Source of the DNA: Pontiella desulfatans
GTDB taxonomy: Bacteria; Verrucomicrobiota; Kiritimatiellia; Kiritimatiellales; Pontiellaceae
NCBI RefSeq assembly: GCF_900890425.1
Contig: NZ_CAAHFG010000001.1
Location: 2,728,001-2,792,000 of the forward strand
Reading direction: 5' to 3'
Length of the DNA: 64,000 nt
Shown: positions 3,462-20,917 of the stretch, in pieces
How the letters are laid out: each line of letters begins with the position of its first letter
Numbering within the stretch: the stretch's first letter is position 1
Position numbers and translations under genes: made by a program
Notes under the pieces: generated by a model
The model's input: the letters and a program-made list of their open reading frames with translations, nothing else
What the model was told of the DNA's origin: nothing
Databases searched by the model: none

Positions 3462-4979
3462 TTATTCCCCGATCCCCAGCGCCTTCAGGTGCTCGGCCAT
3501 TTCGGCTTCGACCTTCACGAGTTCAGTATCGATTTCCTTCAATTCCTTGAGGTTGGCCTCGATGTCGATCTCCTCCTCTTCCTCGAAGGTGTCGACATAG
3601 CGGGTGATATTGAGATTGTGGTCGTTTTCGGCGATCTCGCCGGGCAGGACGGGACGGCAGAACTTTTCGATCGGCTTGCGCTTTTCGACGGCGTCGATGA
3701 TTTTCTGGATATGCTTCTCTTCCATAAAGTTCATGGCCTTGCCGGGCTTGAACTCTTTGGAGGCCTCAACAAAAAAGACGTCCTTGCGGTCGGCGTTGGC
3801 ACCGCCTTCTTCGCGGGATCGGTCGAGGATAAGGATGGCGACGGGGATGCCCGTGGTTTGGAACAGCCCGGCAGGCAGGCCAATGACGGTATCGACGATA
3901 TTTTGCTCCAGCAGGCTTTTGCGAATCCGGCCTTCGGCCGCGCCGCGGAACAGTACGCCGTGCGGGACAATGACGGCGACGCGCCCTTCCCCGGCCTTGG
4001 CGGTTTCGACCATGTGGGTGACGAAGGCATAGTCGCCCTTGGTCTTGGGCGGCAGGCCGCGCCAGAAGCGGTTGTAGGGATCGTTCTCGATGTTTTCGCC
4101 CATCCATTTTTTAAGGGAGAACGGCGGGTTGGCGACGACGAGGTCGAACTTCATGAGGGCGTCGTCTTCCTTGAGCAGCGGATTGTTGAGGGTGTCGCCC
4201 TGTTTGATGGTGGCGGAATCCTTGCCGTGCAGGAACATGTTCATGCGGGCGAGGTTGTAGGTGCCCATATTGCTTTCCTGGCCGTAGAGGGCGTAGTCGT
4301 TCGAGCCCTGCTTCTCGATCTCAGCCCCTGCCAGCAGCAGCAGACCGCCCGCCCCGCAGGCAGGATCGCAGATGCGCCAGCCGGGTTGCGGCCTGGCCAG
4401 CCGCGCCAGCAGCTCGGCGACGGAATGGACGGTGAAGAATTCGCCAGCTTTTTTTCCGGCATCGGAACCGAAGCGCTCGACCATATACATATAGGCATTG
4501 CCGATCACGTCGTCGCCCGCCTCGGTGAGGTCGATCCTTGAAAAGTCGTCCATGAGGTCGCGCAGCATTTTGTTGCGCTGCTCGGTATTGCCGAGCACGG
4601 CCTCGGAGTTGAAGTCGACGGTGATGATGCCGCCGAGCCGCTCACTGTTTTCGTCTTCGATCCGATGCAGCGCCTTGTTGAGCAGTTCGCCGAGGTTGTC
4701 TTCCTCGCGCTTGAGGTAGAGCTCGTGGAAGCTGGCGCCCTCGGGAATGATGAAGCGTTCGCTTTTCAGGCGCAGGGCAATACGGTCTTTGTCGTCGCCA
4801 TAGCGCGCCTTGAGTTTTTCCAGCGTGTGCTGATGCAGGTCGGAGATATATTTGAAGAAGAGGAAGAGCAGGACATAGTCCTTGTAGACCCCGCCATCGA
4901 CGTTGCCGCGCGAGGAGTCGGCCGCGTTCCACAGCGTTTTGTTCAGCTCGTCCTGGGTGTATTTTTTTGCGCCTGTCAT
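3462..4979 (-). CDS. hsdM: Type I restriction-modification DNA methyltransferase HsdM
   Basis: A 505-residue N6-adenine methyltransferase subunit, normal in length for HsdM. The N-terminal helical domain (about residues 8-150) is followed by the SAM-binding motif DPACGAGG (205-212) and the catalytic NPPF motif (284-287). The C-terminus is a charged helix ending HLKALGIGE, which contacts HsdS. With HsdS it methylates adenines in an asymmetric bipartite site and protects host DNA. It lies 19 bp downstream of a half-size HsdS gene. The sequence shows no frameshift or missing motif, so it should be active. Confidence 0.95.
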   Translation of the reverse strand: MTGAKKYTQDELNKTLWNAADSSRGNVDGGVYKDYVLLFLFFKYISDLHQHTLEKLKARYGDDKDRIALRLKSERFIIPEGASFHELYLKREEDNLGELLNKALHRIEDENSERLGGIITVDFNSEAVLGNTEQRNKMLRDLMDDFSRIDLTEAGDDVIGNAYMYMVERFGSDAGKKAGEFFTVHSVAELLARLARPQPGWRICDPACGAGGLLLLAGAEIEKQGSNDYALYGQESNMGTYNLARMNMFLHGKDSATIKQGDTLNNPLLKEDDALMKFDLVVANPPFSLKKWMGENIENDPYNRFWRGLPPKTKGDYAFVTHMVETAKAGEGRVAVIVPHGVLFRGAAEGRIRKSLLEQNIVDTVIGLPAGLFQTTGIPVAILILDRSREEGGANADRKDVFFVEASKEFKPGKAMNFMEEKHIQKIIDAVEKRKPIEKFCRPVLPGEIAENDHNLNITRYVDTFEEEEEIDIEANLKELKEIDTELVKVEAEMAEHLKALGIGE

Positions 4980-4998
4980 GGTTGGCTCTCCGTTTAAA

Positions 4999-5592
4999 CT
5001 ATTGAATGGTTGAAAGTCTCGCCTTGGCTGAAGCTTCGGCAGTCAAGTGGTGGTTAATGAGTCCGTCCAGCAGCTCCAGCTTGCGGGCGGTGAGCCGGGC
5101 ATAGTCCCGGCGGCTCTGTTCGAGGTCGATCAGCTCCTGCTGCGTTCCAAGGTCTGGAACCGGGAGAATGAAATGCTCCATCGTATTGCGGCTGACATAG
5201 GGAATGGAGGATTGCTCGATCAGACGGTTAAAGCCCAGCCTGCCCTGCGCGGAGTTGAAGTAGAGTGACAGATAGGCCGGCAAAACCGCCTTACCGGGCT
5301 TAACCCTGACCACCAGCAACGAGCCGGAAGCGACACACCCGCCTTCGCATTGCCCGGAAAACACCGCCGACGCAAAACGACCGCGCGTGGAAACCAGCAC
5401 ATCGCCTGCTTTTAGAAGGTGCTCTTTCTTGAGGCCGGAAACGACAACCCGTAAAATTCGGGCATCCAGAATACGACCGTCATCCGACAGATCACGCGGT
5501 TGTATGACGCATACGTTACCATCAGGATCATGGATGATTTTAGACCTAAAGGCATAACCTGCTCGTATTTCAGCTATATCGCAAATACTCAT
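4999..5592 (-). CDS. Half-size HsdS-like specificity protein
   Basis: The frame is open from 5676, but I place the start at the ATG at 5592 (MSICDIAEIRAGYAF). A promoter at 5603-5630 would start transcription only a few bases upstream of it, leaving a leaderless or near-leaderless mRNA. The 197-residue product has one target-recognition domain (IAEIRAGYAFRSKI, then LKAGDVLVSTRGRF) and one C-terminal helix (LDLEQSRRDYARL-type). Normal HsdS has two of each, at about 400 residues. Half-subunits can dimerise to recognise palindromic bipartite sites. A fuller-looking HsdS is encoded at the left edge, so the locus holds two specificity proteins. Confidence 0.75.
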   Translation of the reverse strand: MSICDIAEIRAGYAFRSKIIHDPDGNVCVIQPRDLSDDGRILDARILRVVVSGLKKEHLLKAGDVLVSTRGRFASAVFSGQCEGGCVASGSLLVVRVKPGKAVLPAYLSLYFNSAQGRLGFNRLIEQSSIPYVSRNTMEHFILPVPDLGTQQELIDLEQSRRDYARLTARKLELLDGLINHHLTAEASAKARLSTIQ

Positions 5593-5602
5593 AACAGTTC
5601 GC

Positions 5603-5630
5603 AATATAGTCATACTGCGCATTCTGTCAA
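5603..5630 (-). promoter_or_regulatory. Sigma-70-type promoter for the type I RM operon
   Basis: On the minus strand a perfect -35 box TTGACA (5630-5625) is followed after 16 bp by TATATT (5608-5603). Transcription would begin near 5597, about five bases before the ATG at 5592. Confidence 0.55.
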
Positions 5631-5715
5631 GCCTCTCGCAATAAACAAATATTGCACAGTTGACGCAGGTATACATTTTTCTCTACAGTTTGGTGCAACA
5701 AAGGAGACCGATGTT

Positions 5716-7204: not shown

Positions 7205-7504
7205 ATGAAAAGCAGCACCAAGCAGATGATCACCGTTGCATTAGCGGCCGACGAAACCATCGACAGCACATCGCGAAAACAACTGGCACAAGCCTTGGCC
7301 GGCAAGCAAAGAGCCGGCAAACAAATCGGCACCAAGGAGGCGGCTGCCATCCTTGGCATACACCCCATTAGCCTGAGAAGACTTGAAAAGAGAGGTGCCA
7401 TTTCAGCGGTACGGCTTAGCAAACGGCGTATCCGCTGGTTTCTCGAAGATGTCACCCGTCTTCGCGACCAAGGAGTGGAAATCGACCGGGGGGTGGAAAA
7501 ATGA
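7205..7504 (+). CDS. MerR/excisionase-type helix-turn-helix protein
   Basis: A 99-residue DNA-binding protein. Residues about 40-85 form an excisionase-like winged helix-turn-helix: GTKEAAAILGIHPISLRRL followed by the wing with RLSKRRIRWF. It could act as a recombination directionality factor or a transcription regulator of the mobile region. No partner integrase is encoded nearby. The ATG follows a GGAGGA site held in a hairpin. The stop overlaps the start of the next gene by 4 bp (ATGA), so the two are translationally coupled. Confidence 0.75.
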   Translation: MKSSTKQMITVALAADETIDSTSRKQLAQALAGKQRAGKQIGTKEAAAILGIHPISLRRLEKRGAISAVRLSKRRIRWFLEDVTRLRDQGVEIDRGVEK

Positions 7505-8136
7505 ACGCGCCGCCAACTACAATCTGCATCGATCACAACAGCGTGCATTTCACCCGAGCGAGATTCCTGATGGAAACTAGGTCTTGCGACCCAAACAGAG
7601 CCATTCTTAATCTGCTATGCGTTGAACGGCGGGCGCGGGGTATCTCGATCACGGCAACAAATGGACAATTCCTGCGCTCGGACAACTTCAACATACGCGC
7701 CGAGCCGGGGGTTTATTGCGTTGCGAGTAACACGGTCGACCAGATCGGCCTAATTCGGGTCTATGAAACTGCTGCATACCCCAATTATCGCCATGCGATC
7801 CCAAGGCTCAACTCATCAAATTCCCACGTTCTGGAAGGCCACGGTCTTAATTTTGTTGTCTGGGCCGCAGCGGCCCTAGGCACATATATCTCCCCGACAT
7901 TGATCCATATTGGCGAGAATGAACCCTTTAAACTCCACATTCATAAGAAGGATTACCTTGGAGTCGTCCTGAAGAACAGGAATACGACGGCAGTCATCAT
8001 GCCGGTCACCAGCAAGGAAAAATGGACAGATTTAGTTACCAACATCCAGCGAGGCGTACACCTCAAGGCCCTATTGGGCGAACAAACAGCTTCCCTGAAA
8101 CTAATTCACAACAACCAAACTGGAGCCGCAAAATGA
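7501..8136 (+). CDS. Sliding-clamp (DnaN)-like protein, copy 1
   Basis: A 211-residue protein homologous to the one encoded at 15879-16490. Shared landmarks are GISITATNGQFLRSDNFN against GITITATDGRRMRSDRFN, then AEPGVY/AEPGLY, YPNYRHAIP/FPSYRQVIP, and a closing hydrophobic VIMP/VVMP. The ATDGRRM-type motif preceded by a VLxxVL-like segment resembles a domain of the DNA polymerase III beta clamp. The protein is about half to two thirds the length of DnaN. A role in element replication or clamp mimicry is inferred. It sits directly upstream of the initiator-like gene. Confidence 0.6.
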   Translation: MNAPPTTICIDHNSVHFTRARFLMETRSCDPNRAILNLLCVERRARGISITATNGQFLRSDNFNIRAEPGVYCVASNTVDQIGLIRVYETAAYPNYRHAIPRLNSSNSHVLEGHGLNFVVWAAAALGTYISPTLIHIGENEPFKLHIHKKDYLGVVLKNRNTTAVIMPVTSKEKWTDLVTNIQRGVHLKALLGEQTASLKLIHNNQTGAAK

Positions 8137-8273
8137 CCACAAAAAAAACCGCGCTGGCAGGCGCGGAATCCAATACTCAACACAAAGAAGAACATATCAT
8201 GAACAATACTACCCTGCAAGCGTTCGATACGGCAACGGGGCTTCTGATGCGGCATTCTGGAGGCGCACTATGA
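8133..8273 (+). CDS. Small ORF between clamp-like and initiator-like genes
   Basis: A 46-codon frame overlaps the clamp gene stop by 4 bp (ATGA) and the initiator gene start by 4 bp. A second possible start at 8200 (MNNTTLQAFDTATGLLMRH, 24 residues) follows a CCGCGC/GCGCGG hairpin at 8149-8166 by 34 bases. That is the spacing seen for other genes in this region, so the shorter peptide may be the real product. No family is recognised. Confidence 0.45.
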   Translation: MTTKKTALAGAESNTQHKEEHIMNNTTLQAFDTATGLLMRHSGGAL

Positions 8274-10090
8274 ATCCGGGACATGAACAGCTGCCGGTTT
8301 TGGTTCGGCAAATCACCGAGTTAAGGATTACCGGGAACATGATCCCTAACACATGGACAAAATTCATTGTTCATGGCAAGAAGAAGGAGCCCGACTTCCT
8401 CGCTATGCACATCCTGAGCGACACCGTCTATTGGTATCGTGCCTCGGTCAAGAAGGACGAAGAAACCGGGCTCGTAATCCACGTCAAAAAAAGGTTCACA
8501 GCAGACAAGCTGCAGCGAAGCTATGCGCAGCTGGCGGAACTGTTCAGCATGTCGAAAGCACGGGTCAAGCAATCTATTGACCTGTTGATTGATCAGGGTC
8601 TCATCGAGCGTGAATTCAGGAACATAACTCCGGAGATGGGCTCCCCGCTAAACAACGTCATGTTCCTGGCTCCCGTACCGGACAAGATCCGGGAAATCAG
8701 CTTCCCCAGAGTCGACAAGCGGCCAAGGAAGCCAGCAAAAAGCTACAACGTATCGAAAAAAAACAAGGTGGCCCCCTCTCCGGAAACCAAAGCACCCCCC
8801 TCCCCTGATAAATCGATAGCCCCCTCCCCCAAAACTTTTGGGGGACGTATACAAGAGACTACAACGGAGATTACAACGGAGGTTACAACAGAGAAAAATC
8901 CCTTATATTCCCTTGCCGGGGGCAAGGGAACTTCTCCTTCTTTTTTTTCTTCTGAAATACCATACCCGTCGATCCCGGAGAACGCGGCATCTACGGAAGC
9001 AGTTCCGACGGGAGGTGCTCCAACTACTGAGCCCCAATCTCCCGGAGAGACCCTTTCCCCGGAACCTGTGCCAGACGAAGATGAGGAGGAGGGCTGGGAT
9101 CCTCCCTTTGACCTGCAGTGGATAAGCAACTGCTCCCCGGAAGAACTGGATGCTGAAAGGGTGAAAATTACCGCGCTCAAAAGGCGTCTCCGGGAACAGC
9201 AGGCAGAGAGGCTCATGCAAACCAGATTATACCCGTTGATATGCGCCATCTTTTATCGCAACGTTGCCCCTGAAGAAATGATCCCCATGCTGTCCCCCTT
9301 GCGAACCGGCACCATTTCCGCAAACAACCTGCTGTTTGCCGCGGCTTACTCCCTCTTGTCCCAGTGCGTTAATTTCTCCAACATCCCGGATCTCGTCCGT
9401 GCATTGAAGGAAAAAGACGACGATCAATATCTTGCTAGGTGCCGGGATGATATCACGGAAAGTCTTGCGCTTGAGCAAGAGATATTTCACCGCGAATATC
9501 CTGATGCAGATCTAGAAGAAGCCCTTGAATCTCTGAGAGAAACATACGGCTCTGTGATCATCGACTTCGGATACGATCGCGGCGCGGCTCAGAAACTCAA
9601 AGACAAGTGCGATCGCGTTATGACTAAGCAGACCGAGTACTGGAATTCGATATGCAGCAACCTTAATGTATATCAAGGCTTAGGATGCACCTTGAATCAT
9701 CTTTGGGAACATGCCGACGCCACGGCTTACCAATCATGGGACGCCATCAAACTCGCTGCACTGTTCAAGCTGGATCTTATTCAGCCAGAAGCAGCCATCA
9801 ACGATCAACGAGTCGAAGACGCTTGCCGGAAGGCAAGCGAGTACAGGTTCGTCCGGGATCTATTCTCGCAGGCAGAATCAGGGCACCCCGCCCTGAAGCA
9901 AATTCTCGATTCCAGCGAAACCCTGCCCAGCGAGAGCCAGACCCCAGAATGTAAAGTCGACGACACGACGGACACGGTCCTCGCGATGGCCGAGAAAGGG
10001 CTTGGGGACGATATAGCCCTCCCCAATGTAACAAACAACGAGGCGGTCACACTCACAACAAAGAACCACAAACGAAAGGAACTAAAATGA
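8270..10090 (+). CDS. Replication initiator-like protein with internal iterons
   Basis: A 606-residue protein. Residues about 75-115 form a helix-turn-helix (LQRSYAQLAELFSMSKARVK, then LIDQGLIERE). This N-terminal layout is shared with phage and plasmid replication or replisome-organiser proteins. A low-complexity linker (about residues 165-210) has PSP repeats and then TTEITTEVTTE, whose DNA is a run of 12-bp direct repeats. The C-terminal 350 residues are helical and unassigned. ATGA overlaps couple it to the genes on both sides. With the adjacent clamp-like protein it is the best candidate for element replication. The initiator call is inferred from architecture. Confidence 0.55.
   Translation: MNPGHEQLPVLVRQITELRITGNMIPNTWTKFIVHGKKKEPDFLAMHILSDTVYWYRASVKKDEETGLVIHVKKRFTADKLQRSYAQLAELFSMSKARVKQSIDLLIDQGLIEREFRNITPEMGSPLNNVMFLAPVPDKIREISFPRVDKRPRKPAKSYNVSKKNKVAPSPETKAPPSPDKSIAPSPKTFGGRIQETTTEITTEVTTEKNPLYSLAGGKGTSPSFFSSEIPYPSIPENAASTEAVPTGGAPTTEPQSPGETLSPEPVPDEDEEEGWDPPFDLQWISNCSPEELDAERVKITALKRRLREQQAERLMQTRLYPLICAIFYRNVAPEEMIPMLSPLRTGTISANNLLFAAAYSLLSQCVNFSNIPDLVRALKEKDDDQYLARCRDDITESLALEQEIFHREYPDADLEEALESLRETYGSVIIDFGYDRGAAQKLKDKCDRVMTKQTEYWNSICSNLNVYQGLGCTLNHLWEHADATAYQSWDAIKLAALFKLDLIQPEAAINDQRVEDACRKASEYRFVRDLFSQAESGHPALKQILDSSETLPSESQTPECKVDDTTDTVLAMAEKGLGDDIALPNVTNNEAVTLTTKNHKRKELK
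8846..8893 (+). repeat. 12-bp iterons inside the initiator-like gene
   Basis: Three direct 12-bp units (ACTACAACGGAG 8858-8869, ATTACAACGGAG 8870-8881, GTTACAACAGAG 8882-8893) are preceded by a degenerate unit (8846-8857). On the left are C-rich runs (8768-8830), and on the right an A/T-rich stretch (8893-8960). The arrangement resembles an origin embedded in an initiator gene, as in lambda O. Confidence 0.6.
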
Positions 10091-11250
10091 AATATAAACT
10101 GACAGAAGAAACTAGAGAGATTAACGGCATCACGTTATACCGCATCGAGGCGACATCCTCTTTCGGTGACGTAAAGGAAGGCGACCTGGGCGGATGGGTC
10201 GAGAATTCTAAAAACCTGTCCAAGAGAAGGCGGGCATGGATCGCCGACGAAGCCGCCGTGTACGGAGAGGCAAGGGTCGGAGGAGATGCCTGGATCGGAG
10301 GGAACGCCGAAGTATACGAACGAGCCTCAATTGGTGCGCGCGCTAAGGTTTTCGGTAATGCTAAGATTTATGGAAATGCCTGCGTCGTGGATGACGCCGT
10401 AGTGACTGACTATGCGAAGGTCAGCGGGTTCACTCAAGTGCTGGGCTGTGTCTGCATAATGAACCATGCATCCGTCTCAGGTGATATCCGACTCTTAGGC
10501 AGCATAAAGTTCGGAACAAACACGCAGCTCACCGGCCAGTTCGCGATCATTGAGCAGACCGGAACCGTTTTACACATCGATGGAAATGCTCCATACCTAC
10601 CGAATTTAGAGCGTATTGCGCATAATGCAGGCATGCGTGATGAAGCCCCATCTCACATCGACTTGCAATCTGCCGACGGGCCATATTGGCATGAACCGAT
10701 CAGACCTGCCCCCGAGGTTATCCACAGAGAACCACTCAGCTATGAGCGGACTATTCCCGATCTTCTGCTTAGCTCATTGAAAGAAGCATTGATGGATGTT
10801 CAGGACCCGAGAAAAAGCACTCCCCGGTTCCAACCATCCACCATCTTGAGCCTGGCGTTCATAGCGGCGTTGCGCGGAGCAAAAGAAACATCTCAAATAA
10901 ATGACTTCATACCATCTCTGAGCCTGACCGTGAAACAGTCCCATTGGCTCGGACTGCCTCCCCCTCATCACCGCACTCTGGAACGAGCTATGCCTCCCTC
11001 TTCAGCTTACAGCCGACTTCACGGGGTTATCGATATGAAATCGGTTAACCGGATACTCAGGCAATGGCTGAAAGATCATCGGTACGAACTGCCCGGCCAG
11101 ATGGCCCCCGCAACGCCGTTCATGGATGAAACGTTCAAGTCCCTGACGCACATGTTCCGGCGGGACAGAGCCTCTGCCGGCAAGGCAAAGCTCCGTGGCG
11201 GTACGCAGCCGAAGCAGGATTCACACAACCAACCAAAGGCAACGAAATGA
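10087..11250 (+). CDS. Hexapeptide beta-helix protein fused to a YbfD-type transposase-associated domain
   Basis: A 387-residue protein in two parts. Residues 1-160 match the phage/plasmid KEGDLGGWVE family of left-handed beta-helix proteins, with imperfect hexapeptide repeats such as GNAKIYGNACV. Residues about 215-340 match the H-repeat/YbfD N-terminal domain: DPRKS, ILSLAFIAALRGAKE, a HRTLERAM-like block and a RQWLKD helix. The sequence ends shortly after the point where a transposase would continue into its first catalytic Asp motif, so there is no DDE domain. The next large gene carries the same domain on a different N-terminus. The stop overlaps a 22-codon ORF. Confidence 0.65.
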   Translation: MKYKLTEETREINGITLYRIEATSSFGDVKEGDLGGWVENSKNLSKRRRAWIADEAAVYGEARVGGDAWIGGNAEVYERASIGARAKVFGNAKIYGNACVVDDAVVTDYAKVSGFTQVLGCVCIMNHASVSGDIRLLGSIKFGTNTQLTGQFAIIEQTGTVLHIDGNAPYLPNLERIAHNAGMRDEAPSHIDLQSADGPYWHEPIRPAPEVIHREPLSYERTIPDLLLSSLKEALMDVQDPRKSTPRFQPSTILSLAFIAALRGAKETSQINDFIPSLSLTVKQSHWLGLPPPHHRTLERAMPPSSAYSRLHGVIDMKSVNRILRQWLKDHRYELPGQMAPATPFMDETFKSLTHMFRRDRASAGKAKLRGGTQPKQDSHNQPKATK

Positions 11251-11315
11251 ACGAGAACAACATCGATGTCATAGCCGCACACCGGGATAACTACGCCGGG
11301 GCCCCCTACGAATAA
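11247..11315 (+). CDS. 22-residue ORF coupled by ATGA overlap
   Basis: The ATG overlaps the stop of the preceding gene (ATGA) and the frame runs 22 codons (MNENNIDVIAAHRDNYAGAP and two more). The overlap style is that of the neighbouring real genes, but a peptide this short may simply terminate coupled translation before the hairpin at 11364-11385. Confidence 0.3.
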   Translation: MNENNIDVIAAHRDNYAGAPYE

Positions 11316-11363
11316 GTGCATGGGCTCTTCGGACCACCGGAAGCATGAATACAGGCTTAATCG

Positions 11364-11385
11364 GGGCGGGCGCAATCGCCCGCCC
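11364..11385 (+). terminator. GC-rich hairpin upstream of the DUF4338 gene
   Basis: GGGCGGGCG and CGCCCGCCC pair perfectly (9 bp) around a CAAT loop. There is no T-run. It lies 25 bases before the preferred start at 11411. Confidence 0.5.
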
Positions 11386-11410
11386 TGCCTCCCCAACACA
11401 AAAGGCCGCC

Positions 11411-12439
11411 ATGAAACCAGAAAGAAAATTCATACCGGATTATGACAATATCTACGTGGTGGCAGCCCCACCGCAGAGGTTCAAAGAACTCGCAAAGGAA
11501 CACATGGATGGATGGGATGACCTCTTATTTGAACACGAGGTCGCATATGAGATGGGGCTTCTGGTTTTGACCAACAACGACTGGTTTGGGGCACTCTTAG
11601 TGCGACGGGCGGAAACCCAATCCCTTGAGCGAGATCACTGGCTTGGCTGGAGCACGTACCATCAAGTGGAACGAAGCCCCCTGGTTCTGGAAGTCCTTGA
11701 ATACCTGCCCCGCTGGGAAGCATGCTACCGTCCAGATTACGGCGTGCGTGCCTTGCAGGCAGCCATCTCACGGATGGCGGAAATGTTCGAACTGCATTAC
11801 GGCTATAAACCTTTACTGGCGGACTGCCATATGGATCCGGACGGCCGGATGCCGGACTATTTCCGCGGTGCCGGCTGGATCCTTGCAACGGAAGGGAACC
11901 CTGAAAAACTTTCAAGCTACTGGATCAATGAGTTGGTTCCCCGGGCCTCGGAAATCATGACGGCCAAAAACCTGGACAAAGCATACACGGCTGGCACCTC
12001 CCGCAAACTCACCGGACTGCTACCCATCAGCGAGCATCTTCTTCCATCGCTGAGGGATGCTTTCAAAGCCATAGACGACGATCGCGCAACGAACAAGAAA
12101 CACCCTCAGCACAGCATTTTGGCAACGATATTTCTGGCCCTGCTGTGCGGATTCCATTCTGTCAACGGCATAGTGAAATTCTCTAGGCGCCTGTCGGTGG
12201 CAAATGCCCAAATGCTCGGATTCAAAGTCGACTTAAATGGATGCGCCATTATCCCAAAATACCATACCTTCTATCGGGTACTGGGCAATTTGGATCGCCT
12301 GCAGCTATCCGAATGCTTCGTTAGGTGGGTTGAAGTCCACGAGAAGGAACTCCCGCGATCCCTGCAATTTACCGGCAGGGTCATGCGCGATGCACTCATC
12401 ACCTTCGTCAAGTATCTGGGCAGGCGCCACCCGCAGTAG
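11411..12439 (+). CDS. DUF4338 (DruA-like) protein with YbfD-type transposase-associated domain
   Basis: I prefer the ATG at 11411 because an AAAAGG site and the preceding hairpin match the local pattern; a start at 11345 is also open. The 342-residue product begins with a DUF4338-like domain (RDHWLGWST, then MFELHYGYKPLLADCHMDP and YFRGAGWILATEG), the family of Druantia DruA and some IS-linked proteins. From about residue 205 it has the YbfD N-terminal domain: LLPSLRDAFKAIDDDR, ILATIFLALLCGFHS, YHTFYRVL. It stops at ELPRSLQFTGRVMRDAL, in register with the other fusion protein, so it also lacks a DDE catalytic domain. Confidence 0.65.
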   Translation: MKPERKFIPDYDNIYVVAAPPQRFKELAKEHMDGWDDLLFEHEVAYEMGLLVLTNNDWFGALLVRRAETQSLERDHWLGWSTYHQVERSPLVLEVLEYLPRWEACYRPDYGVRALQAAISRMAEMFELHYGYKPLLADCHMDPDGRMPDYFRGAGWILATEGNPEKLSSYWINELVPRASEIMTAKNLDKAYTAGTSRKLTGLLPISEHLLPSLRDAFKAIDDDRATNKKHPQHSILATIFLALLCGFHSVNGIVKFSRRLSVANAQMLGFKVDLNGCAIIPKYHTFYRVLGNLDRLQLSECFVRWVEVHEKELPRSLQFTGRVMRDALITFVKYLGRRHPQ

Positions 12440-12829
12440 GTACCATGCAGGAGAAATATGGGGCTGAGAGAAGGCAGAATACAGGTACACAAGCACAGAA
12501 TACGCGTTGCATATATAACTATCGTAATATTATACACTTATAACCATAAAATAGTCAAATACAAAGAAAATTTATCAACTAGCGCACCTAAATCGGAAGA
12601 AACAGGCTTTCAGCGGATCTTCAAATCGCAAATTCTCTCGGTTTTCTCGCATAATACTCATATGAAAAACCATCTTTGAGAAAAATACCGGTTTTGCATG
12701 TGCTAAAACCCTGTCTATAAAAAAGAAGCAAAGAACCAACCTTGTGACATGCCCTATACAGTGAAAAAGAGCGTTTGGGGGGTTATATATAATTGAAGGG
12801 AAAGGTGTAGCTATGCCCTCCCGCCTAAT
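12440..12829. other. A/T-rich non-coding gap
   Basis: There is no convincing gene here. The stretch is markedly A/T-rich compared with its flanks. It holds one 8/9 match to the DnaA box (TTATACACT, 12530-12538) and one 7/9 match (TTATCAACT, 12572-12580). It may carry the promoter of the next operon or an origin, but neither is proved. Confidence 0.4.
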
Positions 12830-12858
12830 GCCCCGGAATCCGCCGGGGCGTTTCTTTT
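12830..12858 (+). terminator. Hairpin with T-run before the 12886 gene
   Basis: GCCCCGG/CCGGGGC form a 7-bp stem with a 6-base loop, followed by GTTTCTTTT. It looks like an intrinsic terminator, yet it lies only 27 bases before the next start codon. Confidence 0.65.
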
Positions 12859-12885
12859 AACCAATAACCAAGGAGGCTTCCCCAT

Positions 12886-13299
12886 ATGATCACGCTAAAT
12901 TCAAGCTACAAAAAGACGGTGCCAATTGAAGGTCATGAATACTCAAGTCAGTCCTATCTGGCATCTGTATCCACGGAATTACCCGCAGGGTTAACCGAGT
13001 CAGAGCTGAAGGAAAAAATAGCCAACACCTTCCGCCTGGTCCGTGACTCGGTTGAGTCAGAGTTAGCGAAGGGCTCGACGCCTGGTGCGCTGCCGGAGCC
13101 GCAACAGCACAGTGCCCAGATGGATAGCAAGGCGAGCAACAAGCAGGTCGGCTATTTACTCGACTTAGCCAAGGCTCGTAACATTACGTTGATGCAACTC
13201 AATGCCGACGTCAAGAAGCAGTACGGCGTAGACTCCATATTTGATCTGGACCGTAAGACCTGTAGCCGCCTGATTGATGAGTATCAGCGGGCGGCCTAA
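12886..13299 (+). CDS. Mobile-element protein with C-terminal SAP-like domain
   Basis: A 137-residue soluble protein. The C-terminal half (about 85-135) reads ASNKQVGYLLDLAKARNI and then LDRKTCSRLIDEY. This is a pattern common in plasmid and phage proteins, where a small helical domain follows an ASxKQ start. The N-terminal half is unassigned. An AAGGAGG site precedes the ATG. It starts the recombination/maintenance gene block and is flanked by hairpins on both sides. Confidence 0.6.
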   Translation: MITLNSSYKKTVPIEGHEYSSQSYLASVSTELPAGLTESELKEKIANTFRLVRDSVESELAKGSTPGALPEPQQHSAQMDSKASNKQVGYLLDLAKARNITLMQLNADVKKQYGVDSIFDLDRKTCSRLIDEYQRAA

Positions 13300-13322
13300 G
13301 TACCACCCCACCCTAACACTCG

Positions 13323-13359
13323 GCCCCGTCGTTCCATCGTGAGCGGCGGGGCTTCTTTG
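13323..13359 (+). terminator. Hairpin before the nuclease gene
   Basis: GCCCCG (13323-13328) pairs with CGGGGC (13347-13352), followed by TTCTTTG. The nuclease start codon follows 21 bases later. Confidence 0.55.
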
Positions 13360-13380
13360 TATCTACAACAGGAGAATCAA

Positions 13381-14202
13381 ATGACATTGATGGAATTAAG
13401 AAAACGACCGCACTGGTCGTTCAGTAGTCTGAACTCATTGCTGAACATCTGCAGCTTGCAGTGGCGATTTCAGAAGATCGATAAACTCAAGCCCACGCAT
13501 ACATCGGTCAACTTGGTCGCAGGAAGTTGCCACCATCGTACACTCGACCAGGTCTACTTGGCGAGAAAGCTTGGTATGCCTATGACCATAGATGAAGCAC
13601 TGGAACTCTATACCGAAGACTGGAGACGGTCATCACAAGAGGAGCCGATCAAATACGGTAAGCTTGATGCAGATGGCGTAGAGGAACAGGGCCGTGGTTT
13701 GATCCAGGTTGCATGGGATAACATAGATCCAACGGAGACGGTATTGCAGGTCAGCGAAGTGTTCTGTGTGCCGATTATTTATGATGGTCGGTTTATGAGT
13801 AAGCCTATGGTGGGTGAATGGGATTTAATCGTAGAGAAAGACGGTCAGCCGTTGGTGATCGATTGGAAAACTTCTGCGACTAGGTGGGCGAAAACTAAGG
13901 CCGAAAAGTCATTACAGGCAACAGCGTATTCGTTGGCGTACTGGCAGAAGCATGGGATTAATCCGGATGTACGTTTTGATGTAGCGGTGAAAAATAAGAC
14001 CCCGGTGCATGAAAAGCATGTAACAAGTCGTGCCCCCGAAGACTGGGCACTGCTGGGCATGCTGGCGGCGAAGGCGGAGACCATCGTGGAACAGGAGTTA
14101 TTTTATCCGAGTCTGGATTCGTTCGCCTGTAACGACTGCCCCTTTGCCGGGGCATGTGAATCATGGTGCCACGGAGAATATTCCATCGCACAGGCCGCCT
14201 AA
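13381..14202 (+). CDS. RecB-like PD-(D/E)XK exonuclease with Cys cluster
   Basis: A 273-residue nuclease of the PDDEXK_1/RecB-Cas4 type. The catalytic core is VGEWDLIVEKDGQPLVIDWK, which contains the metal-binding Asp and the DxK motif. QATAYSLAYW follows as the conserved QxxxY helix. The C-terminus has a CNDCPFAGACESWC cluster of cysteines, likely an Fe-S site as in AddB and Cas4. It probably trims DNA ends during element replication or recombination. The start at 13381 follows a GGAGA ribosome site. Confidence 0.85.
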   Translation: MTLMELRKRPHWSFSSLNSLLNICSLQWRFQKIDKLKPTHTSVNLVAGSCHHRTLDQVYLARKLGMPMTIDEALELYTEDWRRSSQEEPIKYGKLDADGVEEQGRGLIQVAWDNIDPTETVLQVSEVFCVPIIYDGRFMSKPMVGEWDLIVEKDGQPLVIDWKTSATRWAKTKAEKSLQATAYSLAYWQKHGINPDVRFDVAVKNKTPVHEKHVTSRAPEDWALLGMLAAKAETIVEQELFYPSLDSFACNDCPFAGACESWCHGEYSIAQAA

Positions 14203-14230
14203 TCCACCACCCCGCATCAACCCCAACCAC

Positions 14231-14262
14231 CCCGTCGCGCCATCCCGGCACGGCGGGTTTTT
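14231..14262 (+). terminator. Hairpin before radC
   Basis: A CCCGTCG/CGGCGGG-type stem with mismatches is followed by TTTTT. It lies 24-30 bases before the radC start. Confidence 0.55.
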
Positions 14263-14286
14263 AGTTTAAACACACAAAATGGAGAA

Positions 14287-14724
14287 ATGAAAATGGTACT
14301 TCAATTACAGACAGAATTGGCGGTCAAAGAGGCTGCTTATGACGGAACTTTGCTGACGTCACCGGAACATGTTGAAGCGTATTTGAGTGAGCTGAAGTCG
14401 GCTGCTCAAGAAGCGTTTGTGGTTATTGCGTTGAATGCTAAGAACCGGGTGATCGAGAAACATCTGGTTTCATTGGGCACCGTATCATCGGCGCTGGTCC
14501 ATCCTCGTGAGGTGTTCCGGCCGCTCATTCAAAGCGGAGCATCGTACACCATTTTGGCGCACAACCACCCCAGTGGAAGTCCTTCTCCCTCTTGCGAAGA
14601 TCTGAAAATTACGAGACAGCTCATCGCAGCTGGCGAGATCATGGGCATCAAAGTGCTCGACCATATCGTCATCGGCGACCGGGCCGTATCGTTGCGGGAA
14701 ACCGGGCTGTGTCACTTCGGGTAG
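14287..14724 (+). CDS. radC: RadC-family JAB-domain protein
   Basis: A 145-residue version of the RadC/MPN+ domain, without the N-terminal HhH region of chromosomal RadC (about 225 residues). The metal site HNHPSGSPSPSCED is intact. Short RadC proteins are typical of plasmids and integrative elements, where their role is still unclear. ATGs at 14287 and 14293 are both possible; the second has better spacing to the GGAG site. It is followed 13 bp later by a small orphan gene. Confidence 0.88.
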   Translation: MKMVLQLQTELAVKEAAYDGTLLTSPEHVEAYLSELKSAAQEAFVVIALNAKNRVIEKHLVSLGTVSSALVHPREVFRPLIQSGASYTILAHNHPSGSPSPSCEDLKITRQLIAAGEIMGIKVLDHIVIGDRAVSLRETGLCHFG

Positions 14725-14737
14725 GAAGGAGCGAACC

Positions 14738-14959
14738 ATGAAAGAATATGGAGCCTACCTGACGCCGGAGAAGTTGATAGCGATAGAGCTGCCTGTCAGG
14801 CATCACGACAGTGCCGTGCATAACCGGAAGATGCGCCGGGCTAAGGCGGATCTGCTGGCGATGAACCTGCGCCACTACATCGACCTCGGAGCAATGAAGC
14901 CCGAGGACCGGTGGGAGATGGAGAAAGCCGTAGAGGTGCTGAGAAAACAATCAAAGTAG
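14738..14959 (+). CDS. Hypothetical small protein
   Basis: A 73-residue basic, helical protein (MKEYGAYLTPEKLIAIELPV at the start). Good GAAGGAG ribosome site. No family recognised. It lies between radC and the YubB-like gene with short gaps, so it is part of the same transcription unit. Confidence 0.6.
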   Translation: MKEYGAYLTPEKLIAIELPVRHHDSAVHNRKMRRAKADLLAMNLRHYIDLGAMKPEDRWEMEKAVEVLRKQSK

Positions 14960-14971
14960 AAAGGAGTGCAT

Positions 14972-15442
14972 ATGCCTAATCACTGCAACAACGAAGTAAC
15001 CCTGCACTGCCGGACGGAGGAGATTGCATTGCGCATTAAAGCGCATCTGGCCGGCAAGGAATCACTGTTTGATTTCACGTCGCTCCTCCCTACCCCGGAG
15101 GAGCTGCTGGAGTCGACGGATGATCCCGAGGTTAATGCCCGGCGCATAGCCCAATACGGTCATGACGGCTGGTATGACTGGCGCGTAGCAAACTGGGGTA
15201 CCAAGTGGAATTCCTATGACTGTACGCTGGATGATTCAAACATCCGCAACGGAAGGCTGAACTATTGCTTTCTTACGGCATGGTGCCCCCCGGAAGGCAT
15301 CTGCCGCAAGCTCAAGGAATACATCACCGCCCACGCGCTGGATATCGATGTTAGCTGGTTCTACTACGAACCGATGAACGGCATCCGGGGTCATCTGGAA
15401 CAGGAGGTAGGACATGGCGAAAGTCGTAATCAAAACGCCTGA
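14972..15442 (+). CDS. YubB/DUF1281 ferredoxin-like-fold protein
   Basis: A 156-residue protein starting MPNHCNNEVTL, typical for the family. Diagnostic pieces are FDFTSLLPTPEEL, WRVANWGTKWN and FLTAWCPP. These are the landmarks of the plasmid-borne YubB/Api92-like DUF1281 proteins, whose function is unknown. The start at 14972 has an AAAGGAG site. The end overlaps the next gene by 29 bp in another frame. Confidence 0.8.
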   Translation: MPNHCNNEVTLHCRTEEIALRIKAHLAGKESLFDFTSLLPTPEELLESTDDPEVNARRIAQYGHDGWYDWRVANWGTKWNSYDCTLDDSNIRNGRLNYCFLTAWCPPEGICRKLKEYITAHALDIDVSWFYYEPMNGIRGHLEQEVGHGESRNQNA

Positions 15443-15632
15443 TGGCAAGTATGTCGGTGGCGGCAGCAGAGAGACTGAACTCGTGGATCGTATCACCCGG
15501 GCCTACCTCTATGAGGACGGACCGGAGGTTGATTCCGAGATCAGCATCGTGAACGCCGTACATGGCTGGCAGTGGAAAAAGGTCGATGCGGAGCAAGAGT
15601 ATGACCGGCAGCTGGCCGGTGCAGGTCCCTGA
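15414..15632 (+). CDS. Hypothetical small protein
   Basis: A 72-residue protein (MAKVVIKTPDGKYVGGGSRE start) with a GGAGG site inside the preceding gene. No family recognised. Mixed beta/alpha composition, no membrane segment. Last gene of the radC unit, before the tandem repeat region. Confidence 0.55.
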   Translation: MAKVVIKTPDGKYVGGGSRETELVDRITRAYLYEDGPEVDSEISIVNAVHGWQWKKVDAEQEYDRQLAGAGP

Positions 15633-15640
15633 TATACATC

Positions 15641-15780
15641 AACTGTTCCAACTGTTGAATGATCGGCATGCCCGTCTTCCGGCAGTTGGCTCAGTTGCGG
15701 ACATGATCTGAACTGTTCCAACTCTCGACAGACAGCGAACACGAAACCGCGGCAGTTATGACAGTTACGAACACATCAGC
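15641..15780 (+). repeat. Two tandem 70-bp repeats with AACTG/CAGTT boxes
   Basis: Units 15641-15710 and 15711-15780 share their start (AACTGTTCCAACT) and, 40 bp on, GGCAGTT-N6-AGTT, at exactly 70-bp spacing; the spacers differ. Each unit has AACTG boxes facing CAGTT boxes. The array looks like a protein-binding region such as iterons, a partition site or an operator. Confidence 0.65.
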
Positions 15781-15820
15781 TATACGCACCGCCAAGCGCT
15801 CATAGGAAGCGCGATAAAGT

Positions 15821-15846
15821 GGCCGCCTCCAATCCGGGAGGCGGCC
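15821..15846 (+). terminator. Perfect hairpin before clamp-like copy 2
   Basis: GGCCGCCTCC (15821-15830) pairs perfectly with GGAGGCGGCC (15837-15846). There is no strong T-run. The next start codon is 33 bases away. Confidence 0.6.
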
Positions 15847-15878
15847 TGCTGTATTTACAAACCCGAAGGAGAACCACG

Positions 15879-16490
15879 ATGAACAGCATGATAGAACTCA
15901 ATAATAACAAGCATACCAAGCCGGACTTTACCGGGCTGAAGTCCGTACTCGCCTGCACCTCCAAAGACCCTACCCGGCATGTTCTCTCCAAAGTGCTTAT
16001 AGAGACGGACGGTGATGACGGCATCACCATCACCGCAACGGATGGCAGACGCATGCGCAGTGACCGGTTCAATCTGGAGGCCGAACCGGGCCTTTACGAT
16101 ATAAAGGTTAATTCCGCAAAGGCGATCTTTCTTACCCGGTGCCAGGAGGAGCTGACCTTCCCGAGCTATCGGCAGGTTATTCCCAACCACACTGACGATG
16201 CCGCCTACACCCTCAATGGCAACGGTAAACAGTTTGTGCTGCGTGCCTGCGCCGGACTGGGATGCTGGGTTGATCCTAAACTGGTGCAGCTGGGTGACGA
16301 TGAGGCCGTTACGCTCCATATCCAGAAGATCGATCCCAAGCGGTCTCCGGTGCTCGTGACGAATGAGACGACCACCCTGGTGGTCATGCCGATGATGCTT
16401 GACCACTACTGGATTCAGCAGCTTGAAGCCATTCAGCAGGAGCGGATGCTTCAGGCGATGAAGGAGAAGGAAGAAAGGATCGCGGCATAG
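15879..16490 (+). CDS. Sliding-clamp (DnaN)-like protein, copy 2
   Basis: The ATG at 15879 follows GAAGGAG; an earlier in-frame start at 15819 would overlap the hairpin. The 203-residue product has VLIETDGDDGITITATDGRR, resembling a beta-clamp domain, then AEPGLYDIK and FPSYRQVIP. It is paralogous to the protein at 7501. It is closer to real DnaN (ATDG retained, where copy 1 has ATNG) and ends in a charged helix. It may form a clamp-like ring or cap used by the element's replication. Flanked by hairpins, it appears to be a monocistronic unit. Confidence 0.62.
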   Translation: MNSMIELNNNKHTKPDFTGLKSVLACTSKDPTRHVLSKVLIETDGDDGITITATDGRRMRSDRFNLEAEPGLYDIKVNSAKAIFLTRCQEELTFPSYRQVIPNHTDDAAYTLNGNGKQFVLRACAGLGCWVDPKLVQLGDDEAVTLHIQKIDPKRSPVLVTNETTTLVVMPMMLDHYWIQQLEAIQQERMLQAMKEKEERIAA

Positions 16491-16538: not shown

Positions 16539-16568
16539 ATGCCCACACCAAACCAAAGGAGACAACCA

Positions 16569-17155
16569 ATGAGTGCTTATCAGAAGATTAATGAAATGAT
16601 TACCGCCCGATTGATCGAACGCATAGAAGCAACGGGAGAGCTGCCCTGGAAGAAGCCGTGGACATCGGTATCGCTAATGCCGAAGAACCTGGTTACGGGA
16701 AAAAACTACCGCGGTGTGAATGTGTTTTTGCTGCACATGCTCGGTTACGCCAACCCCTGCTTCCTATCGATGAAGCAAGTCAATGCGATGGGAGGCAAAG
16801 TCCGTAAAGGCGAGAAGAGTTGCCCTGTAATTTTTTGGAGATTCATTGAAGCCAAGGAAAACACTCCTGATCAAAAAGGCTATGCGATGCTCAGGTATTA
16901 CCGAGTATTTAACGTAGAGCAATGCGAGGGACTGCCAGCAAGTAAGGTCCCGGCGATTGAGATCCCCACAAGGGAGCATGAACCCTTGAAGGTAGCGGAG
17001 AGTCTAGTCGCTTCAATGCCCAACCCGCCGCGGATCAACAATGCCCGCACATTGGCCTCATACAGTCCATCGATGGATCTAGTGTCGATGCCCTGTCCAG
17101 AGTGGTTCACCAGTGGCGAAGAGTATTACGGCGCGCTGTTCCATGAACTGGCGCA
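16569..17155 (+). pseudogene. ardC: ArdC-type antirestriction protein, N-terminal part (interrupted)
   Basis: Starts at 16569 (MSAYQKINEMITARLIERIE). It has the ArdC N-terminal ssDNA-binding domain (LPWKKPW, NYRGVNVFLL, GEKSCPVIFW) and begins the metalloprotease-like domain, ending in the HELAH zinc motif at 17141-17155. There a RIT element is inserted. The frame continues only to 17231 in element DNA, giving an aberrant 221-residue product with HELAH but no C-terminal ligand. Joining 17155 to 20611 restores CAC (His) and an in-frame 297-residue ArdC. ArdC normally protects incoming plasmid DNA from type I restriction, as encoded at the left of this window. Confidence 0.92.
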
Positions 17156-17179
17156 TTATGCCGACACTGGGATTATGCC
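17150..17179 (+). repeat. Left terminal inverted repeat of RIT element
   Basis: A 30-bp sequence perfectly inverted at 20554-20583. Its first six bases are shared with the ardC target. Inside, TTATGCC occurs twice (17156 and 17173). Confidence 0.9.
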
Positions 17180-17225
17180 GTACCGAATGATTTCACCCTT
17201 GCAGTCAAAGGGTGTTCGGTACGGC
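17177..17225 (-). terminator. Long subterminal hairpin at left end of RIT element
   Basis: GCCGTACCGAA pairs with TTCGGTACGGC (11 bp) and, inside, CACCCTT pairs with AAGGGTG (7 bp). A 6-base bulge lies on one side only. It is just downstream of the ritC stop. It could end the rit transcript or act as a folded single-strand recombination site. Confidence 0.5.
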
Positions 17226-17237
17226 CATTAGGCATAA

Positions 17238-18233
17238 TTATAGGCCTTCGAGGAAGGCGAGTAGCTTGTCAGCGGGGAGATACCGCCCTGGTTTCGAGGC
17301 CGTTGCCATCACTTTTTCCAACGCCTTTTCCTTAAGGTGCAGATCGGCGTGCAGGTAGATTCTCGTTGTTTCAACGGATTCATGGCCAAGCCATAGCGAG
17401 ATAACGGTTTGATCCACCCCGTGGTGCAGCAACTCCATGGCGGTGCTGTGCCGAAGCACATGCGGACTCACCCGCTTGGTCGCCAGCGAGGGGCAGGTTT
17501 TCGAAGCCGTGAGCGTATGCTTTCGCACAAGATGTTCCAGGGCGTCTCGACTGAGTTTCCCTCCCCTGATGGTTGGAAAGAGCGGCCCGTCTTCAGTTCC
17601 GCCATACCGCCGAAGCCAGTTCTTCATGACCAAAAGGGTTTCTTTCCTGAGAGGCGTGAGGCGCTGTTTTCGACCTTTACCCATACACTGGACATGCGCA
17701 CCAGTTCCGGCAATGAGATCGCATTGGCATAGGTTGATTAGCTCCGATGCTCGAAGTCCGGTTTGCAGTGCCAGTGTCAGGATGGCATGATCGCGTTGCC
17801 CGATCCATGTGGACCGGTCCGGCGCAGACAGCAGCGCATCCATTTCCCGGCGGTCCAAAAACTCCACTGTACGTTGCTCATGGCGCTTGCTGGGCATGGA
17901 CAGTATTCGCTGGCATTGGAGCAGGTATGCCGGTTCGGTCATGGCCACGAATTTGAAGAAGGACCGGATGGCGGCCAACCGGGCATTGCGGCTGCGGGCG
18001 CAGTTGCGGCGCTTGTTCTCAACATAGGCGAGGAAGTCGCCCACCAGTTCGGTATCCAGATCTTCGACCCGGAGTTTCGTCGGCACCTTGCCGTGTTGTT
18101 CCCCGGCAAAGCGCAACAGCAGGCGGAAGGTATCCCGGTAGCTGGCGATCGTATTGGGACTTGCGTTTATCTGGATGGTGAGCCGGTCGGTGAAGAACAG
18201 TTGAACCAGAGCGGGTAGTGTCAGCGCGTTCAT
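17238..18233 (-). CDS. RIT tyrosine recombinase C
   Basis: A 331-residue site-specific recombinase. The N-terminal SAM-like core-binding domain (about 1-110) is followed by a catalytic domain with Arg161 (TGLRASELINL), HVLR (His258, Arg261), LGH (His284) and nucleophile Tyr293 (TTRIYLHAD). All catalytic residues are present. The ATG overlaps the stop of the upstream recombinase by 4 bp (ATGA). It is the third gene of the trio, and it probably works together with the other two in moving the element. Confidence 0.9.
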   Translation of the reverse strand: MNALTLPALVQLFFTDRLTIQINASPNTIASYRDTFRLLLRFAGEQHGKVPTKLRVEDLDTELVGDFLAYVENKRRNCARSRNARLAAIRSFFKFVAMTEPAYLLQCQRILSMPSKRHEQRTVEFLDRREMDALLSAPDRSTWIGQRDHAILTLALQTGLRASELINLCQCDLIAGTGAHVQCMGKGRKQRLTPLRKETLLVMKNWLRRYGGTEDGPLFPTIRGGKLSRDALEHLVRKHTLTASKTCPSLATKRVSPHVLRHSTAMELLHHGVDQTVISLWLGHESVETTRIYLHADLHLKEKALEKVMATASKPGRYLPADKLLAFLEGL

Positions 18234-19177
18234 GATTCCACCTCCCTTGCTGCGGATTCTTCCGCACGGCGGGACGCCAGTTCTAGCAGTTCAGGAGCCG
18301 CCTCGATGTACCAGTAGGTGTGTGCGGGCTTTTCATGCCCGAGGTAGGTGACGAGCTTGATCATTTCCTGGGCCGGATCCTTTCCATCCCGGTACCAGTT
18401 GAGCATCGTGCGGACGGCGAAAGTATGCCGCAGGTCATGGATGCGCGGCCCGCGCCCGTGCCGGAAAAACTTCTGAACCGGTCGCAGCCCGACACGCTGA
18501 CATACGATGGCGAAGTTGTAGCGGGCGGCGCAGGCGTCCAGCCGTTCCCCATGATCCGAGATAAAGAATGCCGAGGGTGTCGATTCGTTTAGCCGATCCC
18601 TTTCGACGGCATAGGCAACCAGCCGTTCCGCTGTATCCGTAGAGACCGGCAGCAAGCGTTCCTTGCCCAGCTTTCCTTTTCGTACGGCAACGACTCCATT
18701 CTCGAGATCGACATCGGCAACATTGAGCGAAACGGCTTCGCTGATTCTCATGCCGGTAACGGCGATGAGTCCGAAGAACGTCGAGTAGGTCAGCGGACGG
18801 ATGCCGTTGCGGGAAGGAAGCTCCGCTGCGGCTTCAACGATCATCTTGATTTCCTCTTCGCTGTAGATGTAAGGCCGGGAGCGGCGGACATGGCCGGGTA
18901 TCAGTGATTGCGGCGGCACTTCGTGGCGGGGGTCGATGCCGTGCATCCACTGGGCGAAGATTCTGACCACTGTCAGTCGTCTCGACCAGGTTTGCGTGTT
19001 TGCATGCCCGAATGCCTCCTTCCAGCGAAGGAAACAGCCGGTGCTGATGTGCGCCGCTTCTTCCTGCTCCATGAACTCGATGAACCTGCGAAGGATTCGT
19101 TCATCCGTATTCAGTTTATACCCAAGGCCTCGCCGGATGGACAGGTAGCGCTCAAGCTCTCTATTCAAGGTTTTCAT
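18230..19177 (-). CDS. RIT tyrosine recombinase B
   Basis: I choose the ATG at 19177 (MKTLNRELERYLSIRRGLGY) because an AAGGAGG site precedes it and it overlaps the first recombinase gene by ATGA; the frame is open to 19201. The 315-residue protein has Arg144 (TGMRISEAVSL), HDLR (His247, Arg250), LGH (His281) and Tyr290 in HTYWYIE. HTYWY, in place of the usual TxxYxH, fits the RIT-B type. Second gene of the trio. Confidence 0.9.
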   Translation of the reverse strand: MKTLNRELERYLSIRRGLGYKLNTDERILRRFIEFMEQEEAAHISTGCFLRWKEAFGHANTQTWSRRLTVVRIFAQWMHGIDPRHEVPPQSLIPGHVRRSRPYIYSEEEIKMIVEAAAELPSRNGIRPLTYSTFFGLIAVTGMRISEAVSLNVADVDLENGVVAVRKGKLGKERLLPVSTDTAERLVAYAVERDRLNESTPSAFFISDHGERLDACAARYNFAIVCQRVGLRPVQKFFRHGRGPRIHDLRHTFAVRTMLNWYRDGKDPAQEMIKLVTYLGHEKPAHTYWYIEAAPELLELASRRAEESAAREVES

Positions 19178-20421: not shown

Positions 20422-20424
20422 TTG

Positions 20425-20451
20425 TTGCTCCTTATCGTTGTTAAGGAGCAA
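20425..20451 (-). promoter_or_regulatory. Shine-Dalgarno-sequestering hairpin before ritA
   Basis: On the minus strand TTGCTCCTTA and TAAGGAGCAA pair perfectly (10 bp) around a 7-base loop. The 3' arm contains the AAGGAG ribosome site three bases before the ritA ATG. Folding should strongly limit translation of the trio. Confidence 0.7.
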
Positions 20452-20553
20452 ATCGGAAACAAAACACAACATCTTGCAAGATCGATTCTTGCAATGTTAT
20501 GCCGAATCAGTTTCTCGAATTCACCCGGCAATCAATTCCATTGAAACTCAATT

Positions 20554-20583
20554 CGGCATAATCCCAGTGTCGGCATAATGCGC
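20554..20583 (-). repeat. Right terminal inverted repeat of RIT element
   Basis: Exact reverse complement of 17150-17179. It is followed at once by the 20-bp palindrome TTATGCCGATATCGGCATAA (20585-20604). The ardC sequence resumes at 20611 (CGCA at 20607-20610 is shared). Confidence 0.9.
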
Positions 20584-20610
20584 CTTATGCCGATATCGGC
20601 ATAACTCGCA

Positions 20611-20917
20611 CAGTACCGGCCACGAATCCCGCGTCGGGCGCAAGGCAATCATGACTCCGAATGGAGGATTCGGCAGCCATGCTTATAGTCAGGAAGAATT
20701 GGTTGCTGAGATGACCTCGGCATTCCTTTGTGGATACGCTGGAATATTATTGTGCACAGAACGTAATTCTGCCGCATACCTCAGAGGTTGGTTAGATAAA
20801 TTAAAGGCAGATCCTTCGCTCCTGATCAAAGCTGGCAGCGAGGCTCAGAAGGCATTCGATTACATCATGAATACCAAGGCAGTTGAGCAACCTGCAGTGC
20901 AGGCAGAGGCGGCGTAA
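20611..20917 (+). pseudogene. ardC: ArdC C-terminal part (separated by RIT element)
   Basis: The frame from 20611 reads HSTGHESRVGRKAIM after joining to the upstream part, restoring the HELAHSTGH motif. It then runs through EELVAEMTSAFLC and NSAAYLRGWLDKLKADPSLL to the stop at 20917, the normal ArdC C-terminus. An ATG at 20651 could start a separate 88-residue fragment, but it lacks a good ribosome site and all of the ssDNA-binding domain. Confidence 0.9.

Follow-up and report, generated by a model that had tools for sequence, protein, structure and literature searches.

The 64,000-nucleotide stretch of the Pontiella desulfatans genome that we analysed (the window) carries two short genes, P0001 and P0002 (Table 1), both with ATG start codons. 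The first-pass annotation had described them as paralogues with common blocks, among them an ATDG/ATNG motif like that of the DnaN sliding clamp, and a size of about 205 residues, and on each of these points the sequences bear it out. Both ORFs lie where it placed them, BLASTP aligns their products over almost the whole length (183 aa, 36% identity, E 6e-41), the lengths agree, and the block reads ATDGRR in P0002 and ATNGQF in P0001. P0001 sits between a helix-turn-helix gene and a gene for a phage lambda-O-like initiator, and P0002 lies within a module of genes that recurs with its relatives.

Table 1. Genes and other features of the window around the two clamp-like genes, in window coordinates.
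Feature	Position	Strand	Remarks
Type I restriction-modification genes	3462..5676		adjoin the element
Helix-turn-helix protein (HTH_17/MerR-like)	7205..7504	+	stop overlaps P0001 ATG
P0001	7501..8136	+	211 aa; short, clamp-like and diverged, with ATNGQF variant
Phage lambda-O-like replication initiation protein	8270..10090	+	phrog_270 5.2e-8, phrog_391 8.8e-8; directly 3′ of P0001
Protein ending in DDE_Tnp_1-associated domain	10087..11250		hexapeptide repeats
Protein ending in DDE_Tnp_1-associated domain	11345..12439		
137-aa protein of conserved module	12886..13299	+	no family
PD-(D/E)XK nuclease	13339..14202	+	PDDEXK_1, phage-exonuclease-like
RadC-like JAB-domain protein	14287..14724	+	
Api92/DUF1281_C-like protein	14966..15442	+	weak here; L013 homologue above cut-off
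P0002	15879..16490	+	203 aa, short and clamp-like; N half resembles DnaN domain 2, C half a reduced domain 3; additional C-terminal helix 176-202
ArdC-like antirestriction factor, 5′ part	16539..17231	+	broken by insertion
Insertion of 3435 bp	17150..20584	-	three tyrosine recombinases; inside ArdC gene
ArdC-like gene, 3′ part	20609..20917	+	
Large serine recombinase (XisF/Ccr-like)	25158..27158		may be island integrase

The pair had been taken to lie on a plasmid. However, the window is part of a 4.37 Mb contig, and the 20 kb upstream hold ordinary chromosomal genes followed by a type I restriction-modification block (genes named by eye). Given the size of the contig and these chromosomal-looking flanks, the element is an integrated island and not a plasmid, and the genes of the family are located in mobile chromosomal islands. 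Type I restriction-modification genes adjoin the element both in the window and at locus L062 (15731-19991), with HsdM and HsdS identified by Pfam and HsdR by eye. The two consecutive proteins that end in a DDE_Tnp_1-associated domain come without the transposase itself, and a diverged pair also occurs in island L011. In the region of P0001 and the initiator, this island has in common with the window the two genes that follow but holds a primase/helicase-like pair (by eye), and the P0001 genome search found no P0001 relative beside it.

The module around P0002 that is common to its relatives comprises the 137-aa protein, the nuclease, RadC, the DUF1281-like protein, the clamp-like gene and ArdC. 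In all five loci of the P0002 clade (the window, L011, L012, L013 and L014), ArdC starts just 3′ of the clamp-like gene, with only the first 19 ArdC residues preceding the contig end in L013. In L016 to L018, RadC, ArdC and proteins of 103 and 354 aa precede the clamp-like gene, and L015 has, of the module, only part of the 354-aa protein. Overall, RadC, ArdC or nuclease genes accompany 8 of the 10 family genes. The insertion inside the ArdC gene, which resembles RIT elements, has copies of 99.94-99.97% identity in the ArdC genes of the window, L017 (4347-7781) and L018; it occupies the same place in all three genes, in the window in the opposite orientation to the L017 and L018 copies. A protein of 351-372 aa is encoded near the clamp-like gene in L016 (8659-9723), L017 (8635-9690), L018 (10282-11349) and L013 (2779-3897). 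It probably has a membrane segment at its N-terminus (by eye) and matched no Pfam family (L016 and L013 copies), nor any NCBIfam or PHROGs entry (L016 copy).

We identified ten intact genes of this family: eight in the source genome (G000; 8.66 Mb, 6 contigs), including P0001 and P0002, and one each in two other genomes of the genus (G016 and G018), so that 3 of the 58 genomes in the P0002 search were positive. The host lineage is Pontiella-type, within Kiritimatiellota. Searching with P0001 returned the same eight places in its own genome plus one match at E 0.43, which we counted as chance. Query A1 against genome contigs yielded two loci, in a Pontiellaceae bacterium and a Kiritimatiellales MAG, which are G016 and G018 again. 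No relatives of P0002 were found in the viral contigs, plasmids or phages searched, none of A1 in viral contigs, and none of the second-clade member L015 in plasmids and phages. One clade unites P0002 with L011 to L014 (57-77% identity to P0002) and another comprises L015 to L018 (37-39%); P0001, at 35%, falls outside both. All ten members have intact frames, a length of about 200-218 aa and no domain 1 of the clamp, and the C-terminal extension, like the length, is common to the members. Among the ten pairs for which dN/dS was computed (of 45 possible), nine gave values of 0.12-0.26 and the tenth, P0001/P0002, was saturated. The family is thus under purifying selection. Across the phylum the family profile matched 71 of 387 genomes, three of them over its whole length; in the remaining 68 the match was partial and confined to the first ~70 profile positions, and all 22 of the partial-match loci examined had an ORF of DnaN length.

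Taken singly, the two proteins resemble DnaN only faintly. P0002 alone scored below the cut-offs of Pfam DNA_pol3_beta_2 (PF02767; E 0.045) and NCBIfam dnaN (E 0.0025) and matched the PHROG 947 processivity factor at E 1.7e-5, and P0001 alone matched none of these three. The closest Pfam match of P0001, KMPT-N (E 0.02), was judged to be chance, as were profile matches in the PDB to gingipains and maspin. The profile of the whole family, compared by hhalign with Kiritimatiellota DnaN (15 of the 23 DnaN proteins collected), gave a probability of 98% and E 1.6e-13, which upholds the clamp homology proposed from the motif. Family columns 8-103 align to the central domain of DnaN (128-253), and a gap of ~24 residues interrupts the alignment. 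The whole profile scored 95.5, whereas the best of 100 column-shuffled profiles reached 25.7, and the N half alone reached 93.3 (shuffled maximum 22.2). This profile comparison identifies the N half as homologous to DnaN domain 2. The C half scored 24.1 over residues 104-175 (shuffled maximum 22.0) and 23.5 with its tail, over 104-203 (shuffled maximum 24.1), and its best alignment falls on the last DnaN residues, the site of the VVMP block. By sequence alone, the match of the C half to the clamp C-terminus is therefore marginal. Placement of the anchor blocks ATDG, YPxYRQVIP and VVMP agreed across four MAFFT modes.

Structure prediction gave different pictures depending on the alignment supplied. 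An AlphaFold model from the ten family sequences was poor (pLDDT 67.1, pTM 0.40); its top 29 Foldseek rows were all clamps, at E 4.5e-3 or weaker, and its VIA-align match (74 residues, rmsd 2.9, Z 5.3) was mainly to domain 2, with the register unchanged. An AF2 model from alignment A3, in which the family was joined by 16 DnaN domain 2-3 fragments (of the 23 DnaN collected), reached pLDDT 90.7 and pTM 0.80. Foldseek matched it to 186 PDB chains at E ≤1e-3 (best E 1.7e-7); of the best 50 of those rows, 48 carry titles of beta clamps or their complexes, and the other two, both chains of 8xla, are titled “Mismatch Repair Complex.” Superposed by VIA-align, this model fits clamp domains 2-3 (152 residues, rmsd 3.0 Å, Z 13.1), and further rows pair model residues 1-174 with clamp 124-366. 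Only two inner helices are left in it. Comparison of the predicted fold with the clamp thus supports domains 2-3 with the DnaN-informed model and domain 2 only with the family-only model. The fold match over residues 1-175 was seen only with the former, so the strong model depends on the DnaN rows in its alignment. Since it borrows from DnaN by design, it indicates that the P0002 sequence is compatible with a clamp domain 2-3 fold and is not independent proof of it. Domain 1, which is needed for ring closure, has been lost.

The peptide pocket of E. coli DnaN consists of 18 residues, as listed in PMC11139829, and all 18 positions fall within the 170 columns in which family and DnaN were compared. 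R152, G174, R176, P242, V360, M362 and P363 are each kept in at least 9 of the 10 members. By manual count, the majority residue matches DnaN at 11 of 12 positions of subsite I and at 3 of 8 of subsite II, the latter being eroded (for example, N320 to D and Y323 to L). Subsite I residues are thus retained in the family alignment. At the pocket, family and DnaN have a mean identity of 0.57, a value that none of 20,000 permutations reached, against 0.18 in the other columns, although clamps in general conserve these pocket positions and much of this contrast follows from that. When only DnaN-conserved columns are considered, the values are 0.64 (15 columns) and 0.36 (42 columns), under a conservation threshold that is slightly strict (divisor 17, with 16 rows present). 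In P0001 the equivalent of R176 is F, and D173, the aspartate of the ATDG block, is N.

The family resembles DnaN (E. coli NP_418156; own-genome P0003) in the sequence and fold of the central domain, the YPxYRQVIP link, the C-terminal VVMP block and the residues of subsite I. In contrast to DnaN, with ~366 aa in three domains, its members have ~205 aa and lack domain 1, domain 2 is shorter by ~24 residues, domain 3 is reduced, a new helix is present at the C-terminus, and matches fall far under the Pfam and NCBIfam cut-offs. The genome also holds P0003 as a normal full-length DnaN.

The closest known kind of protein to the family is the short phage proteins of PHROG 3007. The viral structure matches of the DnaN-informed model include proteins of 163-250 aa (BFVD, E below 1e-3), and this model places P0002 in the same class, a clamp-like fold of ~160-250 aa without domain 1. 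PHROG 3007 matched 9 of the 10 members at E ≤0.1 (best 2.9e-5), P0002 only over residues 20-60, and the family profile against two phage members spanned residues 32-181 weakly (P 0.0021, probability 13%). Protein gp20 of phage AH2 belongs to PHROG 3007 (7.6e-32); it is of similar length (209 aa), also lacks domain 1, and has the blocks ACDG, YPDWRAVVP and VGMPL in the same order. It differs from the family in being phage-borne, with ~20% identity, in a less trimmed domain 2 (by eye), and in that no ArdC or RadC is named among the annotated AH2 genes. One record names gp20 “DNA polymerase III B subunit” and another “RusA-like Holliday junction resolvase.” As PHROG 3007 also matches the genuine DnaN P0003 (1.2e-7), besides nine family members, the RusA-like label is doubtful and we rejected resolvase identity; the results suggest that this label on the phage protein family is wrong. 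PHROG 3007, with proteins at L060 (8499-9128) and L061 (232-945), looks like a family of short clamps. The clamp-like structure matches include A0A6J7W9M3 in BFVD, a 1394-aa polyvalent-type phage protein, which suggests a clamp-like part within it.

With several such phage proteins in databases, short clamp-like proteins are less rare than the first-pass annotation implied. We found no description of short DnaN-like proteins on mobile elements in the titles and abstract openings searched, nor in the available text of PMC8310023. The modules described in PMC5512222, in which ArdC and polyvalent proteins serve establishment, are similar in that mobile elements carry genes for ArdC and RadC; they differ in that the available text makes no mention of DnaN, DNA polymerase III, processivity or a clamp.

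We tentatively favor the reading that the family consists of reduced, ring-less DnaN derivatives that bind host clamp clients for island establishment or replication. Consisting of domain 2 of the clamp plus what is probably a reduced domain 3, P0001 and P0002 would not form the standard DNA-encircling dimer, and they may bind the QLxLF-type clamp-binding motifs of host proteins, with Pol III alpha and the clamp-loader delta subunit as candidate clients. Rather unlikely, in our estimate, is that the small protein oligomerizes into a ring, as a homomer or as P0001 with P0002, and serves as a true processivity factor for replication of the element. The clamp fold and domain order are kept in the DnaN-informed model, P0001 lies beside an O-like initiator, phage AH2 has both a short clamp-like protein and a polymerase of its own (gp20 and gp73), and the C-terminal helix 176-202 could be an oligomerization element. 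However, the interface residues K74, I78, R96, R103, R105 and F106 of the E. coli clamp, as given in PMC11139829, lie in domain 1. Without that domain, one face of the known dimer interface is missing, and the inner helices are down to two in the DnaN-informed model. Apart from the pair in the window, the closest two copies in the genome are ~62 kb apart, so that having a second partner gene is the exception.

The position of P0002 beside ArdC and RadC, and the retained subsite I pocket, would also suit a pure inhibitor, a decoy that blocks MutS/MutL, Hda, translesion polymerases or clamp-dependent defense and protects incoming DNA as ArdC does. We consider this unlikely: we identified no clamp-dependent defense system around the element, neither P0001 nor P0002 had a defense match in PADLOC, and P0001 accompanies a replication gene instead, which makes recruitment to the element somewhat likelier than pure inhibition. 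Retention of the subsite I pocket and loss of domain 1 are in keeping with the earlier proposal of a decoy by which the host polymerase would be redirected, a function that is inferred. Reuse of the clamp fold for regulation or DNA binding, with the pocket no longer functional, is improbable. It would agree with the eroded subsite II, the changes in the P0001 pocket region (R176 to F, D173 to N) and the coupling of P0001 to a helix-turn-helix gene, but the residues of subsite I are the best-kept part of the alignment. That these are decaying dnaN fragments captured by the island is scarcely credible, because although they are short and have lost segments relative to DnaN, every frame is intact, dN/dS is low, and length and C-terminal extension are shared across the family.

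If the proteins are indeed ring-less binders of clamp clients, capture would occur during island establishment or replication, and clients would be either brought to the element or kept from the chromosome. P0001, adjoining the O-like initiator and with its altered pocket, would probably act in origin-linked recruitment, and P0002 and its relatives, beside ArdC and RadC, would probably act at entry. A strict-pattern search of the element's own proteins (greedy ORF set) found no clamp-binding motifs. Going further, and more doubtfully, mobile islands might carry such pockets as portable, ring-less clamp parts. Two diverged pockets in one element would serve different clients, the first at the origin and the second in the ArdC/RadC establishment module; without encircling DNA, they would seize the clamp loader or polymerase of the host and so switch replication from host to element.

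The clamp pocket is a hub for handling polymerases, repair proteins and initiation regulators. A family that has kept the pocket and dropped the ring would, if this reading is correct, provide a natural and genetically encoded protein that competes for this hub, in which sliding and client binding are separated as functions, and would suggest a route by which elements take over host replication.
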